Shown: positions 9,014-17,328 of the stretch, one piece after another
Layout: every line of letters begins with the position of its first letter
How positions within the stretch are numbered: position 1 is the first letter of the stretch
Notes under the pieces: model-generated
What the model saw: only the letters and a program-made list of their open reading frames with translations
Databases searched by the model: none
Told to the model about the DNA's origin: nothing
Assembly (NCBI GenBank): GCA_024709485.1
Contig: JANJWO010000065.1
Coordinates: forward strand, 61,670 to 125,669
Source: Hydrogenophilaceae bacterium
GTDB lineage: Bacteria > Pseudomonadota > Gammaproteobacteria > Burkholderiales > Thiobacillaceae
Direction of reading: 5' to 3'
Length of the DNA: 64,000 bases
Position numbers and translations under genes: made by a program

Positions 9014-9949
9014 TCAGGTCTGCCCGATGCGGTCGTAGTAACGCGCCCGGTACATGATGCGCGTGTGCGCGGGCGTGTCGACGAAGCCGGTGCGGTCATG
9101 CAGCACGTTGTTGCACAAAAGCCCCATGCCGGCTTCCAGCCTGTGCTGGAATTTCCAGGGCAGGTCCTGGTCGAGGAATTTTCCGATGGCGGCGACCGCG
9201 GCCTGGGTGGCGGCGTCCTGCTTCCAGGCGATCGAGCGGGTGCGCGCGGTATAGCGCAGGTGCAGCTGGCCGCCGCGCAGGGTGGAGAACACCGGGCCGG
9301 TTTCCTCGGCGCGCGCGACGCCGTTGTCATCCAGGCGCGCGGGGATGGACATAGCGTCTTCCTGCATCAAGGCGCGGATGTGTCCGGGATTCTCGTCGCG
9401 CAGCAAGAGGTAGAGGATCTCGTGGTCGAGCAGCGCATTGGCGCCGCCCTCATGGGCGGGCGCCACGCAATGCAGCATCATGCCGAGGATCTGGCGCTCG
9501 GGGCGGTTGTAATAGCCGTCGGTATGCCAGCGGATGGGGCGGTCGGTGTAGGGGATGAACTCGCCTTTCTTGCCGCCGCTTTCCGACGCCGTCAGCGTGC
9601 TGATGTCGTCCGCGTCCGACATCAGGTTGGCATCGAGATGCTCGAGCCCGAACTGCCGGCCCAGCAGGCGCGGGATGTCCTTGTCCGCGCCCGCATCCGG
9701 GCCGGCGTAGATCGCCATGTTGGCCTTGCGGCAGCGCGCCAGCAGGGCGGCGTGCTCCGCCGCGCTCAGCGCCCTGGGATCGGCGACTTCCACCACCAGG
9801 TCTTCCACCCGCTGCGGATAATCGCGCAGCTTGGCCTCGCGCCAGGCGCGGTAAGCGGCGTCATTGTCCGGATGGAACGGGCTGTTCGGATGGATCAATT
9901 CAACCTCCCGTGGCAAGCCGCGGAGCCTGCCTCGCGCCTGGGCCCGCAT
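9014..9949 (-). CDS. TauD/TfdA family Fe(II)/2-oxoglutarate-dependent dioxygenase
   Basis: A 311-residue member of the taurine/alpha-ketoacid dioxygenase family. The iron-binding facial triad is visible as WHTDGYY (HxD) and the distal His in NNVLHDRTGF, with the 2-oxoglutarate-binding Arg region RIMYRARYYD near the C-terminus. Related enzymes release sulfite from sulfonates or hydroxylate small acids; the substrate here is unknown. The gene sits between an unrecognised protein and the ferredoxin-reductase fusion, in a cluster that also has a sulfurtransferase and a DsrC paralogue, so a sulfur-related substrate is a reasonable inference. No signal peptide, so it acts in the cytoplasm. Confidence 0.85.
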   Translation of the reverse strand: MRAQARGRLRGLPREVELIHPNSPFHPDNDAAYRAWREAKLRDYPQRVEDLVVEVADPRALSAAEHAALLARCRKANMAIYAGPDAGADKDIPRLLGRQFGLEHLDANLMSDADDISTLTASESGGKKGEFIPYTDRPIRWHTDGYYNRPERQILGMMLHCVAPAHEGGANALLDHEILYLLLRDENPGHIRALMQEDAMSIPARLDDNGVARAEETGPVFSTLRGGQLHLRYTARTRSIAWKQDAATQAAVAAIGKFLDQDLPWKFQHRLEAGMGLLCNNVLHDRTGFVDTPAHTRIMYRARYYDRIGQT

Positions 9950-10628: not shown

Positions 10629-11480
10629 TCATTCTCCTGTGGCAATCGGGCGGGCGGGATCGGTGATCCACTCGCCCCACGAACCGGGGTAGAGGCGCGA
10701 GCCGGAAAGGCCTGCCGCCTCCATGGCCAGCACATTGAGGCAGGCGGTGACGCCGGAGCCGCACAGGTGGATCACCTCGTGCGGCGCCGCGCCTTTCAGC
10801 AGGGCCTGATACTGTTCACGCAGCGCCTCCGGCGGCAGCATGGTGCCGTCGATGTCGAGGTTTTCCTCGAACGGCCAGTTGAGCGATCCGGGGATGTGTC
10901 CCGGGATCGGGTCGAAGGGCTCGTATTCGCCGGTGAAGCGGCGGTCCGGGCGCGCATCGATCAGGCGGGTCTTGCCGTCGTTCATGGCCTGCACGACTTC
11001 CTCGGCGGAAACCCACTGGCCGCGCTCGGGCAGGCAGGCGCAGGAGGCGCTGCGGATGTCCGTCGGCGCTTCCTTGGCGAGGGGGCGCTTTTCGCGCTGC
11101 CACTTGGGAAAGCCGCCATCCAGCAGGGCGACGTCGGGATGCCCGAGCCAGCGCAGCAGCCACCACATGCGCGCGGCCATGGAGCCGTAGCTGTCGTCGT
11201 AGACGACAACCTGGCGGTTGACGCCGACGCCCCATTTGCAGAGTTTCTCGGTCAGCAGCTTGGGGTCGGGCAGCGGGTGCCGGCCGGTCTTGGCGCCCTT
11301 CGGGCTGGACAGGTCGTTGTCCAGGTGTGCGTAGCGCGCGCCCGGGATGTGGCCTGCGTCATAGGCCCGGCGGCCGCCTTCCGGATCGGTCAGCGTGAAG
11401 CGGCAGTCGAAGATGACCCAGTCGGGATCACCCAAATGCGCGGCCAGTTCCTGCGTGGAAATCAGTGTGGTGTAGCTCAT
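10629..11480 (-). CDS. sseA: Sulfurtransferase, two-domain rhodanese (3-mercaptopyruvate/thiosulfate type)
   Basis: Transfers sulfane sulfur to an acceptor via a cysteine persulfide. The 283-residue protein has two rhodanese domains: an N-terminal inactive one (VIFDCRFTLTDPEGGRRAYDAGHIPGA) and a C-terminal catalytic one (LIDARPDRRFTGEYE...GHIPGSLNWPF) with active-site loop LCGSGVTA. The CGSGVTA form is that of 3-mercaptopyruvate sulfurtransferases rather than CRKGVTA thiosulfate rhodaneses. No signal peptide, so cytoplasmic. Placed after the RspA and Cas6-like genes in the minus-strand cluster, it may feed or accept sulfur for the neighbouring dsr system. Confidence 0.88.
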   Translation of the reverse strand: MSYTTLISTQELAAHLGDPDWVIFDCRFTLTDPEGGRRAYDAGHIPGARYAHLDNDLSSPKGAKTGRHPLPDPKLLTEKLCKWGVGVNRQVVVYDDSYGSMAARMWWLLRWLGHPDVALLDGGFPKWQREKRPLAKEAPTDIRSASCACLPERGQWVSAEEVVQAMNDGKTRLIDARPDRRFTGEYEPFDPIPGHIPGSLNWPFEENLDIDGTMLPPEALREQYQALLKGAAPHEVIHLCGSGVTACLNVLAMEAAGLSGSRLYPGSWGEWITDPARPIATGE

Positions 11481-11564: not shown

Positions 11565-11897
11565 TCAGTAGCCGCCCTTGCCGTAGGGCTTGGGCAGGCC
11601 GGCGATGCGCACGGCCTGGCGAGCGGGCTGGTTGGGGAACAGCGTGTACAGCAGGGTTTTCCAGTCCTTGCTGTCGTCTTCCTCCTTCAGGGCGATGAGC
11701 ATGTTGCGGAAATTGGGGGTCTGGCCGTGCTGCTTGTACTGATCGCGCAGCCAGTTGATGACGAACCAGTGCTCGTCGGTCAAGGTGATTTTTTCCCGCT
11801 CCGCCAGAATCGGGCAGATCTCTTCGTCGTATACAGGCTCCAACAGGAAATCCTCATCGCCGGTTTCCAGTTCTTCGCCGTTATACATGACTCCCAT
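11565..11897 (-). CDS. DsrC/TusE-family paralogue lacking the C-terminal cysteines (RspA type)
   Basis: A 110-residue DsrC-fold protein (ITLTDEHWFVINWLRDQYKQHGQTPNFRNML). True DsrC carries two conserved C-terminal Cys and TusE carries one; here the tail reads ARQAVRIAGLPKPYGKGGY, keeping the AGLPKP signature but with both Cys replaced. The canonical DsrC in this window (16894-17226) ends QACKIAGLPKPTGCI for comparison. Such cysteine-less members have been called RspA and are thought to be regulatory or structural rather than sulfur carriers. ATG 11897 follows AGGAG at good spacing; the track start at 11930 is too early. Confidence 0.88.
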   Translation of the reverse strand: MGVMYNGEELETGDEDFLLEPVYDEEICPILAEREKITLTDEHWFVINWLRDQYKQHGQTPNFRNMLIALKEEDDSKDWKTLLYTLFPNQPARQAVRIAGLPKPYGKGGY

Positions 11898-11945: not shown

Positions 11946-12545
11946 CTAGACCGCCTCGGCCGCGCCGATGGCGTTGATGGACTTGTGCGGAATGAAGATG
12001 CCGCAGCCCAGTTTGCGATGCAAACCCAGGCCCTGCTGCTGCACACGGATGGCGTGTTCGATGGGCAGGCCGTGCAGCATCAGGCTGTAGCCGGACGCTA
12101 TTTTCTCACCATCGAAGAACATTTGGGGCCTGCCGCAGATGAAACGGGTTTGAATATTCATCGCGTCCAGCTGGCTCAGGATGTCGCGGGTGAAACCCAG
12201 CTCGTCCTGGCTGCCCGTGCACACGAGATGCGCATACAGGGGCGTATGCTGGGTCAGCGCCTTGACCTTGGCCTTGCCCAGGGTGAGGCTATGGCCGGCA
12301 ACCGTGAACGACTGGCCGCTCAACTTTTCCAGGTCGGCGAGCCGGGCTGCCGGGAAGCGGATCACCAGCTTGGCGCGCCGGTTCAGGAGGATCTCGCCCT
12401 TGCCGGTATCGGCCCCCTGAATCGGATGGATGCCCACGTCCGCGTCCGCCATCCAGGGCGCGATCGAAAGCAGGCCCTGGAGCAGCGCCCAGGCGTGGTC
12501 GAGGGGGAGGGTGTGCCCCTTGAGCTCGAATTGGATATCCGACAC
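11946..12545 (-). CDS. Stand-alone Cas6-like RAMP protein (Cmx6-like), no CRISPR array nearby
   Basis: A 199-residue protein whose pattern resembles the CRISPR Cas6/Cmx6 RAMP family (subtype MYXAN): a ferredoxin-like beta-alpha N-terminal half with basic LLNRRAKLVIRFP, a central LTQHTPLYAHLV containing a His, and a C-terminal glycine-rich loop QGLGLHRKLGCGIFIPHK like the G-loop of RAMP endoribonucleases. No cas genes or repeat array are present in the window; its neighbours are a DsrC paralogue and a small unknown gene, all on the minus strand and divergent from dsrA. The RAMP assignment is from motif recognition only; the substrate, if any, is unknown. Confidence 0.65.
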   Translation of the reverse strand: MSDIQFELKGHTLPLDHAWALLQGLLSIAPWMADADVGIHPIQGADTGKGEILLNRRAKLVIRFPAARLADLEKLSGQSFTVAGHSLTLGKAKVKALTQHTPLYAHLVCTGSQDELGFTRDILSQLDAMNIQTRFICGRPQMFFDGEKIASGYSLMLHGLPIEHAIRVQQQGLGLHRKLGCGIFIPHKSINAIGAAEAV

Positions 12546-12595
12546 GGCAGAGATATCGATGTCTTTCGCCTCTGCGTGGTCTTCGTATAGCCAGC

Positions 12596-12844
12596 CTATT
12601 TTGATTCTCCTTCGCTTGCCGCGCCGCCCTCGGCTTCATGGCGCGCCGCCCAGTCCAGCATGGCCTGTCCCCAGATTTTCGCCGTGTGCGGATCGATGTC
12701 GAAAATGGTGAAACGCTTGATTTCACGGATGCGCACCCGCAACGTGACGTAGTCGGCCTGGTGGCTGACGTGCTGGAGCTCGATTTCCTGCCGATACGGG
12801 GTGGCAGTGAATTTCTCCAGGTTTTTGATCTCGATTTCGTCCAT
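12596..12844 (-). CDS. Small hypothetical protein, 82 aa, first gene of the divergent cluster
   Basis: Unrecognised 82-residue protein with alternating beta-strand-like segments (YRQEIELQHVSHQADYVTLRVRIREIKRFTIFDIDP) followed by one helix containing WGQAMLDWAARHEAE and a charged tail. No cysteine, signal peptide or membrane segment. It is the promoter-proximal gene of the minus-strand run and is followed by the Cas6-like gene after 50 bases. The upstream AT-rich stretch around 12910-12955 probably carries the promoter. Confidence 0.65.
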   Translation of the reverse strand: MDEIEIKNLEKFTATPYRQEIELQHVSHQADYVTLRVRIREIKRFTIFDIDPHTAKIWGQAMLDWAARHEAEGGAASEGESK

Positions 12845-13229: not shown

Positions 13230-14522
13230 ATGGCTAAGAAAATGTATGACACGCCCATGCTCGACCAGCTGGAAGGCGGTCCCTGGCCCAGTTTCGTAAC
13301 CGGTTTGAAGCGGCTGGCCAAAGACAAGGACATGATGGTTGACCTGCTGGGTCAATTGGAGGCGTCCTACCGGGACATCAAGGGCTACTGGAAGGGCGGC
13401 ACCGTCGGCGTGTTCGGTTACGGCGGCGGCGTGATTCCGCGCTTCACCGAGCTGAAGGACGAGAACGAAAAGCCCGTCTACCCCGAAGCGGCTGAATTCC
13501 ACACCCTGCGCATCCAGCCGCCCGCTGGTATGCACTACGACACCAAGACCCTGCGCTGGATGTGCGATGTCTGGGAAAAACATGGCTCCGGCCTGATTGC
13601 TTTCCACGGCCAGTCCGGCGACATTATGTTCCAGGGCATCCGGTCCGATGGCGTGCAGGCTGCTTTTGACGAGCTGAACGAAGGCGGCTTCGACATGGGC
13701 GGCGCCGGCCCCGCGCTGCGCACCTCCATGTCCTGCGTGGGTTCCGCCCGCTGCGAAATGTCCTGCTTCGACGAGGCCCGCGCCCTGCGCACCGTCATCA
13801 ACGCCAACATCGATGACATGCACCGCCCGGCCCTGCCCTACAAGTTCAAGTTCAAGTTCTCCGGCTGCCCGAACGACTGCGTGAACTCCATCCAGCGCGG
13901 CGACATGGCCGTCATCGGCACCTGGCGCGACAACATGCGGGTGAACGAAGAGCTGGTGCAAGCCTGGGTTGCCAAGAACGGCAAGGGCGAGCTGGTCAAC
14001 CAGGTTATCAGCATGTGCCCGACCAAGGCGCTGTCGCTGAAGAAGGTCGGCGCCGAGAGCAAGGCCGACGGCGTGGTTGCGGTCAAGGTTGACGCCGAAG
14101 ACTGCATGGAAATCGACAATCACAACTGCGTGCGCTGCATGCACTGCCTGAACGTCATCCCCGGCGGCCTGCTGCCCGGCAACGACAAGGGCGTGACCAT
14201 CCTGGTCGGCGGCAAGCGCACCCTGAAGATCGGCGACCTGATGGGCACCGTGGTGATTCCGTTCATGAAGCTCGAATCCGACGAGGATTTCGAGAAGCTG
14301 AACGATCTGGGCCGCAACGCCATCGACTTCTTTGCGGAAAACGCACTGGAGCACGAGCGTACCGGCGAGATGATCGACCGTATCGGCCTGGTCAACTTCC
14401 TGGAAGGCATCGGTCTGGAGATTGATCCCAACATGATCTCCCATCCGCGCTCGAACCCCTTCATCCGCATGGATGGCTGGGACGAAGAGGCGGCCAAGTG
14501 GGAAGAGCGCAAGAGCGCTTGA
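13230..14522 (+). CDS. dsrA: Reverse dissimilatory sulfite reductase alpha subunit
   Basis: Alpha subunit of the siroheme sulfite reductase that, in sulfur oxidisers, runs towards sulfite and oxidises DsrC-bound sulfur in the cytoplasm. The 430-residue protein has the siroheme/[4Fe-4S] ligand motifs CVGSARCEMSC (Cx5C) and SGCPNDC (Cx3C), and a ferredoxin-like insert (NCVRCMHCLNV). The track ORF starts at 13050; the true start is ATG 13230 (MAKKMYDTPMLDQLEGGPWPSF), preceded by GGAGAG. First gene of the dsr locus. Oxidative polarity is inferred from co-located dsrEFH, dsrL and two-Cys dsrC. Confidence 0.97.
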   Translation: MAKKMYDTPMLDQLEGGPWPSFVTGLKRLAKDKDMMVDLLGQLEASYRDIKGYWKGGTVGVFGYGGGVIPRFTELKDENEKPVYPEAAEFHTLRIQPPAGMHYDTKTLRWMCDVWEKHGSGLIAFHGQSGDIMFQGIRSDGVQAAFDELNEGGFDMGGAGPALRTSMSCVGSARCEMSCFDEARALRTVINANIDDMHRPALPYKFKFKFSGCPNDCVNSIQRGDMAVIGTWRDNMRVNEELVQAWVAKNGKGELVNQVISMCPTKALSLKKVGAESKADGVVAVKVDAEDCMEIDNHNCVRCMHCLNVIPGGLLPGNDKGVTILVGGKRTLKIGDLMGTVVIPFMKLESDEDFEKLNDLGRNAIDFFAENALEHERTGEMIDRIGLVNFLEGIGLEIDPNMISHPRSNPFIRMDGWDEEAAKWEERKSA

Positions 14523-14535
14523 TCGCTGTCCTACG

Positions 14536-14557
14536 CCGCGCGGGCAAGCCCGCGCGG
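14536..14557 (+). terminator. Intercistronic stem-loop between dsrA and dsrB
   Basis: A perfect GC-rich hairpin, CCGCGCGGG-CAAG-CCCGCGCGG, 14 bases after the dsrA stop and about 30 before dsrB. No U-run follows, so full termination is unlikely; it more probably shields the dsrA 3' end or marks a processing point. Confidence 0.6.
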
Positions 14558-14585
14558 CTGTGTTTACATACTGGAGGTTATTAAC

Positions 14586-15656: not shown

Positions 15657-15678
15657 GCGGCGCGCTCGGAGGAAATCG

Positions 15679-15706
15679 TGCCCGCCGGTCTGCCGGCCGG
15701 TGGGCA
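15679..15706 (+). terminator. Intercistronic stem-loop between dsrB and dsrE
   Basis: Stem TGCCCGCCGG with CCGGTGGGCA (one G-U wobble) closing a short loop, followed by TGATTTTAAAT. It lies 22 bases after dsrB. The short T-run makes it a possible leaky terminator separating dsrAB from dsrEFHC. Confidence 0.55.
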
Positions 15707-15743
15707 TGATTTTAAATAGAACTAGAGATTGCATGGATAAAGC

Positions 15744-17226: not shown

Positions 17227-17291
17227 GCAGGCAATCGCTGTTTGCCTGCCAAGCGGCAATGAAGCGGTGGCCCTCCTGCGGGCTGCCGCTT
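17227..17291 (+). terminator. Tandem stem-loops downstream of dsrC
   Basis: Two consecutive inverted repeats: GCAGGCAA (17227-17234) with TTGCCTGC (17242-17249), then AAGCGGCA (17251-17258) with TGCCGCTT (17284-17291). Neither has a long T-run, so partial termination or 3'-end stabilisation is more likely than a full stop; dsrM begins 38 bases later. Confidence 0.6.
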
Positions 17292-17328
17292 GCTCCGAAT
17301 GTCCATTAAACGGAAGACCGACTGACGC

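Follow-up and report, generated by a model that had tools for sequence, protein, structure and literature searches.

A Cas6-family RAMP protein as an apparently CRISPR-independent companion of the oxidative dsr genes

The closest described relatives of the protein analysed here are the Cas6 proteins of type I-MYXAN and type I-B systems (PF09559, TIGR02807; structure 8fcj_B), which combine a fold of two RAMP domains with a glycine-rich loop and a D-H motif in helix 1. A catalytic histidine following the first strand is not universal among active Cas6 enzymes. The glycine-rich loop of Cas6 has the consensus G-phi-GXXXXXG-phi-G, and some proteins with the Cas6 fold are known to bind RNA without cutting it (PMC3727216). 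We analysed a 64,000-nucleotide stretch of DNA from a Hydrogenophilaceae bacterium (the window), in which a member of this family, referred to here as Cas6L, is encoded beside the genes of the oxidative (reverse) Dsr pathway. Cas6L shares the family, the fold, the loop and the helix-1 motif of the type I-MYXAN/I-B proteins, but it stands without a cas operon or array, is neutral in charge, belongs to a separate clade, contains E115 and H187-K188 as well as an N-terminal tryptophan-containing tail, and is located in a dsr neighborhood. In the open full-text literature (subscription papers were outside the scope of the search), no paper joining Cas6 to dsr was found.

Identity, fold and start codon of Cas6L

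The first-pass annotation had assigned the protein to the Cas6/Cmx6 type and proposed profile and Foldseek searches as a check; these recovered the RAMP fold and bear the assignment out. Cas6L matches PF09559 with an E-value of 1e-57 (195.7 bits, cut-off 26.7) and TIGR02807 (cas6_cmx6) with 143.8 bits (cut-off 98.85), and PADLOC models likewise identify it as Cas6. In a sequence search of the PDB, its nearest solved relative is 8fcj_B, the Cas6 subunit of a type I-B CAST (E 5.6e-16). An AlphaFold2 model built from 59 sequences (the window and relatives) has a pLDDT of 91.3 and a pTM of 0.86 and, together with the Foldseek matches, reveals two ferredoxin-like RAMP domains; 8fcj_B is again the top match (TM 0.88, 1.6 Å), followed by Pyrococcus Cas6 and the non-catalytic homologue 3qjj (TM 0.63-0.69), with 3pkm also among the matches, and then by Cas6e. 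Pyrococcus Cas6 and 3qjj resemble Cas6L in fold, but they share only 10-18% identity with it and belong to CRISPR biology. The glycine-rich loop of Cas6L (G172-LGLHRKLGCG-182) agrees with the consensus of PMC3727216. Profile, structure and loop evidence thus confirm that Cas6L is a true Cas6-family RAMP protein.

The open reading frame of 199 amino acids first assigned to this protein (11946-12545, minus strand) is real, but its GTG start at 12545 is probably too late by 18 codons and would yield an N-terminally truncated form, as the frame is conserved for 18 codons above the GTG (beginning ATA GGC TGG CTA TAC GAA GAC CAC); the likely start is ATA, which gives a protein of 217 amino acids. 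In all 33 distinct loci compared (L002-L039), which comprise the window's clade and a Sulfuricellaceae-type clade, the codon at this position is ATA (23 loci) or ATC (10 loci); it is followed by G-W in 32 loci and by S-W in one, and a GGAG sequence lies 5' of it, at a distance of 7 nt in 30 loci and of 6 nt in 3. Within clade A the extension is protein-coding (pS 0.54 vs pN 0.067), the coding signal is absent from the 36 nt 5' of it, and the ATA overlaps the stop codon of the upstream DUF6967 gene as ATAG. ATA is rare in dsrABCMKL of the window, where it accounts for 1 of 136 isoleucine codons. The same position is occupied by ATG in 83 gamma loci (M-F/Y-W-E-E) and mostly by ATG or GTG in the Thiobacillus clade (M-S-W). 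A programmed frameshift fusing DUF6967 to Cas6L was considered as an alternative to an AUA start. Locus L003 reads AGATAG without a slippery run and the Shine-Dalgarno spacing is constant at 6-7 nt, which makes initiation the likelier of the two, short of proof. Non-AUG starts exist, for example the AUU codons of infC and pcnB, and these resemble Cas6L in placing a rare isoleucine-type start behind a good Shine-Dalgarno sequence; Cas6L differs in using AUA or AUC and in keeping this start across 33 relatives of a single gene. The data are best read as initiation of Cas6L at a conserved AUA/AUC codon in the two clades. Such a conserved start is unusual in its own right, and ordinary gene callers truncate Cas6L in the window's clade. 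The added N-terminal tail is acidic, disordered and contains tryptophan; in the 217-residue AlphaFold2 model residues 1-11 are disordered (pLDDT <50), yet W3 is invariant, which would fit a docking motif.

Gene neighborhood and candidate RNA elements

Table 1. Positions of Cas6L, its expression signals, neighboring genes and dsr hairpins in the window.
Feature	Position	Strand	Evidence or remark
TauD-like Fe/2-oxoglutarate dioxygenase, end of conserved block	9014..9949	-	PF02668, E 2.6e-16
Conserved operon protein, ~192 aa	10052..10627	-	no Pfam family; conserved order
Two-domain rhodanese, same operon as Cas6L	10629..11480	-	PF00581; conserved order
Cys-less DsrC-family protein, KGGY tail (RspA-type)	11565..11897	-	PF04358; likely start is the internal ATG at 11897
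Cas6L	11946..12599	-	217 aa from ATA 12597-12599; PF09559/TIGR02807, AlphaFold2, Foldseek
DUF6967 protein, first operon gene	12596..12844	-	PF22295, E 3.5e-27; conserved position ahead of Cas6L in most beta-type loci
Probable ATA (AUA) initiation codon of Cas6L	12597..12599	-	overlaps DUF6967 stop as ATAG (12596-12599)
Shine-Dalgarno sequence GAAGGAGA of Cas6L	12606..12613	-	upstream of the ATA start
dsrA, first gene of divergent dsrABEFHCMKL... operon	13230..14522	+	NIR_SIR domains; dsrA model E 5e-151
dsrA-dsrB intercistronic hairpin	14523..14585	+	candidate RNA element; link to Cas6L is a candidate only
dsrB-dsrE intercistronic hairpin	15657..15743	+	candidate RNA element; link to Cas6L is a candidate only
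dsrC-dsrM intercistronic hairpin(s)	17227..17328	+	candidate RNA element, single copy in genome; link to Cas6L is a candidate only

The arrangement described in the first-pass annotation, in which the Cas6-like gene lies between a Cys-less DsrC paralogue and a small gene and is divergent from dsrA, was confirmed, and the small gene proved to encode a DUF6967 protein (Table 1). Among 190 relatives in named genomes, the closest 80, mostly from Thiobacillus, Sulfuricella, Sulfurimicrobium, Sulfuriferula and Hydrogenophilales, were examined for gene order. The usual arrangement in these ~80 named loci is dsrA-B-E-F-H-C-M in one direction and, diverging from it, DUF6967, Cas6L, the DsrC-like gene, the rhodanese gene, the gene for the conserved operon protein (195 aa in this arrangement) and the TauD-like gene. 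In 117 further loci from across the class dsrA is likewise divergent and the DsrC-like gene follows Cas6L; the TauD-like gene usually lies between dsrA and Cas6L, a placement found in the majority of the class's other families. Individual loci depart from these patterns. Two genomes of 1.4-1.5 Mb (L222, L226) carry Cas6L outside the dsr block, divergent beside a putative rnc (RNase III) gene and with a thioredoxin-like gene adjacent. In L157 Cas6L precedes a gene that, judged from its sequence, putatively encodes a YeeE/YedE transporter, and in L060, L061 and L070 a second open reading frame of the Cas6 cluster lies upstream of DUF6967, which may reflect duplication or a clustering artefact.

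The DsrC-like neighbor belongs to the DsrC/TusE/RspA superfamily, and its closest PDB structure is A. vinosum DsrC (1yx3), but it differs in lacking the sulfur-carrying cysteines and in its KGGY end. It is encoded closely downstream of Cas6L in 169 loci; in these, CysA (the C-terminal cysteine) is absent from 169 of 169 proteins and CysB from 154 of 169, and all examples listed end in KGGY. Outside the class, dsr genomes devoid of Cas6L also encode KGGY-tailed DsrC proteins; the two proteins are thus neighbors, and the idea that they form an obligate pair was rejected.

The dsr operon itself contains intercistronic hairpins (Table 1), whose strength in beta loci reaches median z values of -1.7 (dsrA-B), -2.4 (dsrB-E) and -3.5 (dsrC-M); no strong hairpins were seen at the dsrM-K or dsrK-L gaps. 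Paired columns show two-sided changes (covariation) within clades. No obvious sequence is shared among the hairpins of the window, no Rfam match was found in the window, and Rfam returned only a tRNA in 8 loci. In the Thiobacillus-type loci L043-L081, there is a second dsrC-dsrM hairpin whose stem hardly varies (GUUUCCCAAUCGAAUG...CGUUUGAUUCGUAAAC) and which belongs to no Rfam family. Outside the class, dsr operons without PF09559 also have hairpins after dsrA or dsrC. The hairpins are real, but they do not identify a substrate of Cas6L.

Co-occurrence with dsrA and relation to CRISPR-linked Cas6

A survey of the kind suggested in the first-pass annotation, covering 369 genomes that belong to the window's class (dsrA threshold E <1e-30), showed co-occurrence with dsr. 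PF09559 was present in 118 genomes, nearly always as a single copy, and dsrA in 119; the two occurred together in 111 genomes, which corresponds to 111 of 118 PF09559 carriers and 111 of 119 dsrA genomes (odds ratio 482, Fisher p 7e-75). In contrast, PF09559 was not associated with Cas1: the carriers of PF09559 had Cas1 in 50 of 118 cases and the remaining genomes in 85 of 251 (OR 1.4, p 0.13). Where PF09559 and dsrA share a contig, 82 of 84 pairs are divergent with a gap of 0.7-4.5 kb. Fifteen genomes are exceptions to the co-occurrence; in 13 of these the contig stops short of the position where the partner would lie, or a fragment of the partner is present, leaving two (G211 and G299) that neither circumstance explains. 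All 12 single-contig carriers that were checked have dsrA, and Cas1 is missing in 8 of them. Five Cas6L carriers of only 1.0-1.1 Mb are without Cas1, and some genomes of 1.4-1.5 Mb keep Cas6L at 40-517 kb from dsrA. The retention of Cas6L in small genomes and far from dsrA argues that linkage alone is not the explanation. A mirror-tree correlation between Cas6L and DsrA was set aside (r 0.78 overall but 0.41 within 63 gamma loci).

The absence of CRISPR components noted in the first-pass annotation held as well: Cas1 was not detected in the window's genome (83% complete) and an array scan of the window found no CRISPR-like array. Nor are relatives regularly found in CRISPR loci, as nearly all Cas6L loci have a dsr context, with no placement beside cas3/cas8/cas7/cas5/cas1 or an array; the scan found arrays in none of 202 dsr-linked loci and in 3 of 8 control loci. 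Homologues on cyanobacterial plasmids, used as controls, are for the most part located in complete type I-MYXAN operons. One homologue, on a Gloeobacter morelensis plasmid (L237, 7968-8759), is a PF09559 protein without cas genes, surrounded by hypothetical genes, two genes of the PAPS-reductase family and DNA methyltransferases, and is possibly another non-CRISPR use of the family.

In a tree of 124 proteins, one branch separates 115 dsr-linked sequences from 9 non-dsr (mostly CRISPR-linked) ones, with both groups supported at 100/99. W31, R57, E115, G138, H187 and K188 are nearly invariant in the dsr clade, and E115 and H187-K188 are absent from the CRISPR set, whereas both groups have R63, Q169 and the glycines of the loop. 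The putative catalytic H17 is present in 162 of 199 dsr-linked and 7 of 9 CRISPR-linked Cas6 proteins; one Thiobacillus clade has N17 and Q40, and the CAST Cas6 8fcj also has N at position 17. The median domain charge is approximately 0 in the dsr clade as compared to +7 in CRISPR-linked Cas6. Among close relatives dN/dS is 0.08-0.21, which shows purifying selection.

In a set of 399 genomes of the phylum, PF09559 was found in 5, all from the window's order and each carrying dsrA within an identical gene arrangement, and it was absent from all 48 further dsrA genomes outside the class. Four of the five highest dsrA scorers among these 48 were examined: all four have dsrABEFHCMKLJ with an upstream TauD-like gene, three have DUF6967 and none has Cas6L. 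In three such loci (L266, L268 and L269) the TauD-like and DUF6967 genes flank dsrA in the absence of Cas6L, so these two genes may be older members of the dsr neighborhood. The simplest reading is a single recruitment of Cas6L within the class.

Possible roles of Cas6L in sulfur oxidation

Fold, clade, co-occurrence and synteny strongly support the proposal of the first-pass annotation that this is a repurposed Cas6 with a sulfur-linked role. We are nearly certain that the oxidative dsr genes of this class include, as a standard member, a domesticated protein of the Cas6 family that is independent of CRISPR; a single-copy dsr companion that is built as a Cas6 and does not need CRISPR suggests that a part of CRISPR was given a job in sulfur metabolism. 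It is very hard to credit that Cas6L is an ordinary Cas6 processing crRNA in trans for arrays elsewhere in the genome: annotation models do call it Cas6 and 50 of the 118 carriers have Cas1, but the Cas1 association is absent next to an almost perfect one with dsrA, the window's genome and the 1.0-1.1 Mb carriers have no Cas1, none of the 202 dsr-linked loci scanned has an array, and the proteins form their own clade. Least probable is a functionless relic that hitch-hikes with the dsr block and is inherited or transferred with it as a unit, for although the block is conserved and adjoins dsrA, purifying selection, intact frames in nearly all copies, and the persistence of the gene both in reduced genomes and where it has moved away from dsrA argue against it.

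What Cas6L does is a more delicate matter. The suggestion in the first-pass annotation that it acts on dsr-related RNA is a guess, and the chances of an RNA-directed role come close to even. A specific version, in which Cas6L cuts the polycistronic dsr mRNA at the dsrA-B, dsrB-E and dsrC-M hairpins to leave stable, hairpin-capped 5' messages (e.g. one containing dsrC), is unlikely. Strong hairpins do occur at these gaps and not at dsrM-K or dsrK-L, their paired columns show two-sided changes within clades and the hairpin region occurs only once in the genome; however, similar hairpins follow dsrA and dsrC outside the class where PF09559 is absent, their sequences differ between gaps, and they are equally strong, with no weakening seen, where H17 is lost. 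A doubtful but weightier alternative is that the Cas6 fold was kept while RNA binding was lost, leaving a scaffold, or an assembly or regulatory subunit, in the Dsr sulfur relay, with the tryptophan tail docking on the KGGY DsrC, DsrEFH or DsrAB. The neutral charge of the domain, the new invariant residues (E115 and H187-K188, with W31 also counted), the acidic disordered tail, the adjoining Cys-less DsrC and the clade that lost H17/H40 yet kept the gene all favor such a subunit. On the other side, most members retain the glycine-rich loop, R63, Q169 and D16-H17 of RNA-binding Cas6, and the KGGY DsrC is found without Cas6L.

We favor a mechanism in which a Cas6 parted from CRISPR a single time, early in the history of the class, and now would serve as a dedicated accessory of oxidative (reverse) Dsr. 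Cas6L may still recognize one specific structured RNA, perhaps cutting it as well, in a cleft that helix 1 (D16-H17) would form with the glycine-rich loop and the newly gained H187-K188 pair. Its disordered tryptophan motif would dock it to another protein, for which the KGGY DsrC or the Dsr machinery would be a plausible candidate, with the result that dsr gene output would be tuned post-transcriptionally, and the AUA/AUC start, of an inefficient type and overlapping the upstream stop codon, may keep Cas6L scarce and coupled to DUF6967. The neutral charge, the N17/Q40 Thiobacillus clade, and the occurrence of both hairpins and KGGY DsrC without Cas6L count against this mechanism. Taken as a whole, the reading of an ex-CRISPR Cas6 as an RNA-recognizing accessory of oxidative Dsr that tunes dsr output narrowly misses an even chance. 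Its fuller form, in which the protein performs RNA-level control or processing in the sulfur oxidation of the class, is AUA/AUC-started in one clade and is docked through its tryptophan to the Cys-less DsrC or another Dsr protein, is put forward tentatively.

Because the clade passes the score threshold of the automatic 'type I-MYXAN Cas6/Cmx6' model, CRISPR is misreported in sulfur oxidizers, and the annotation hides a nearly universal, unstudied companion gene of dsr. If Cas6L acts on RNA, it would add a new regulatory layer to a globally important pathway and clearly exemplify the transfer of a Cas protein to metabolism; a CRISPR nuclease family would then have been recruited into core energy metabolism.
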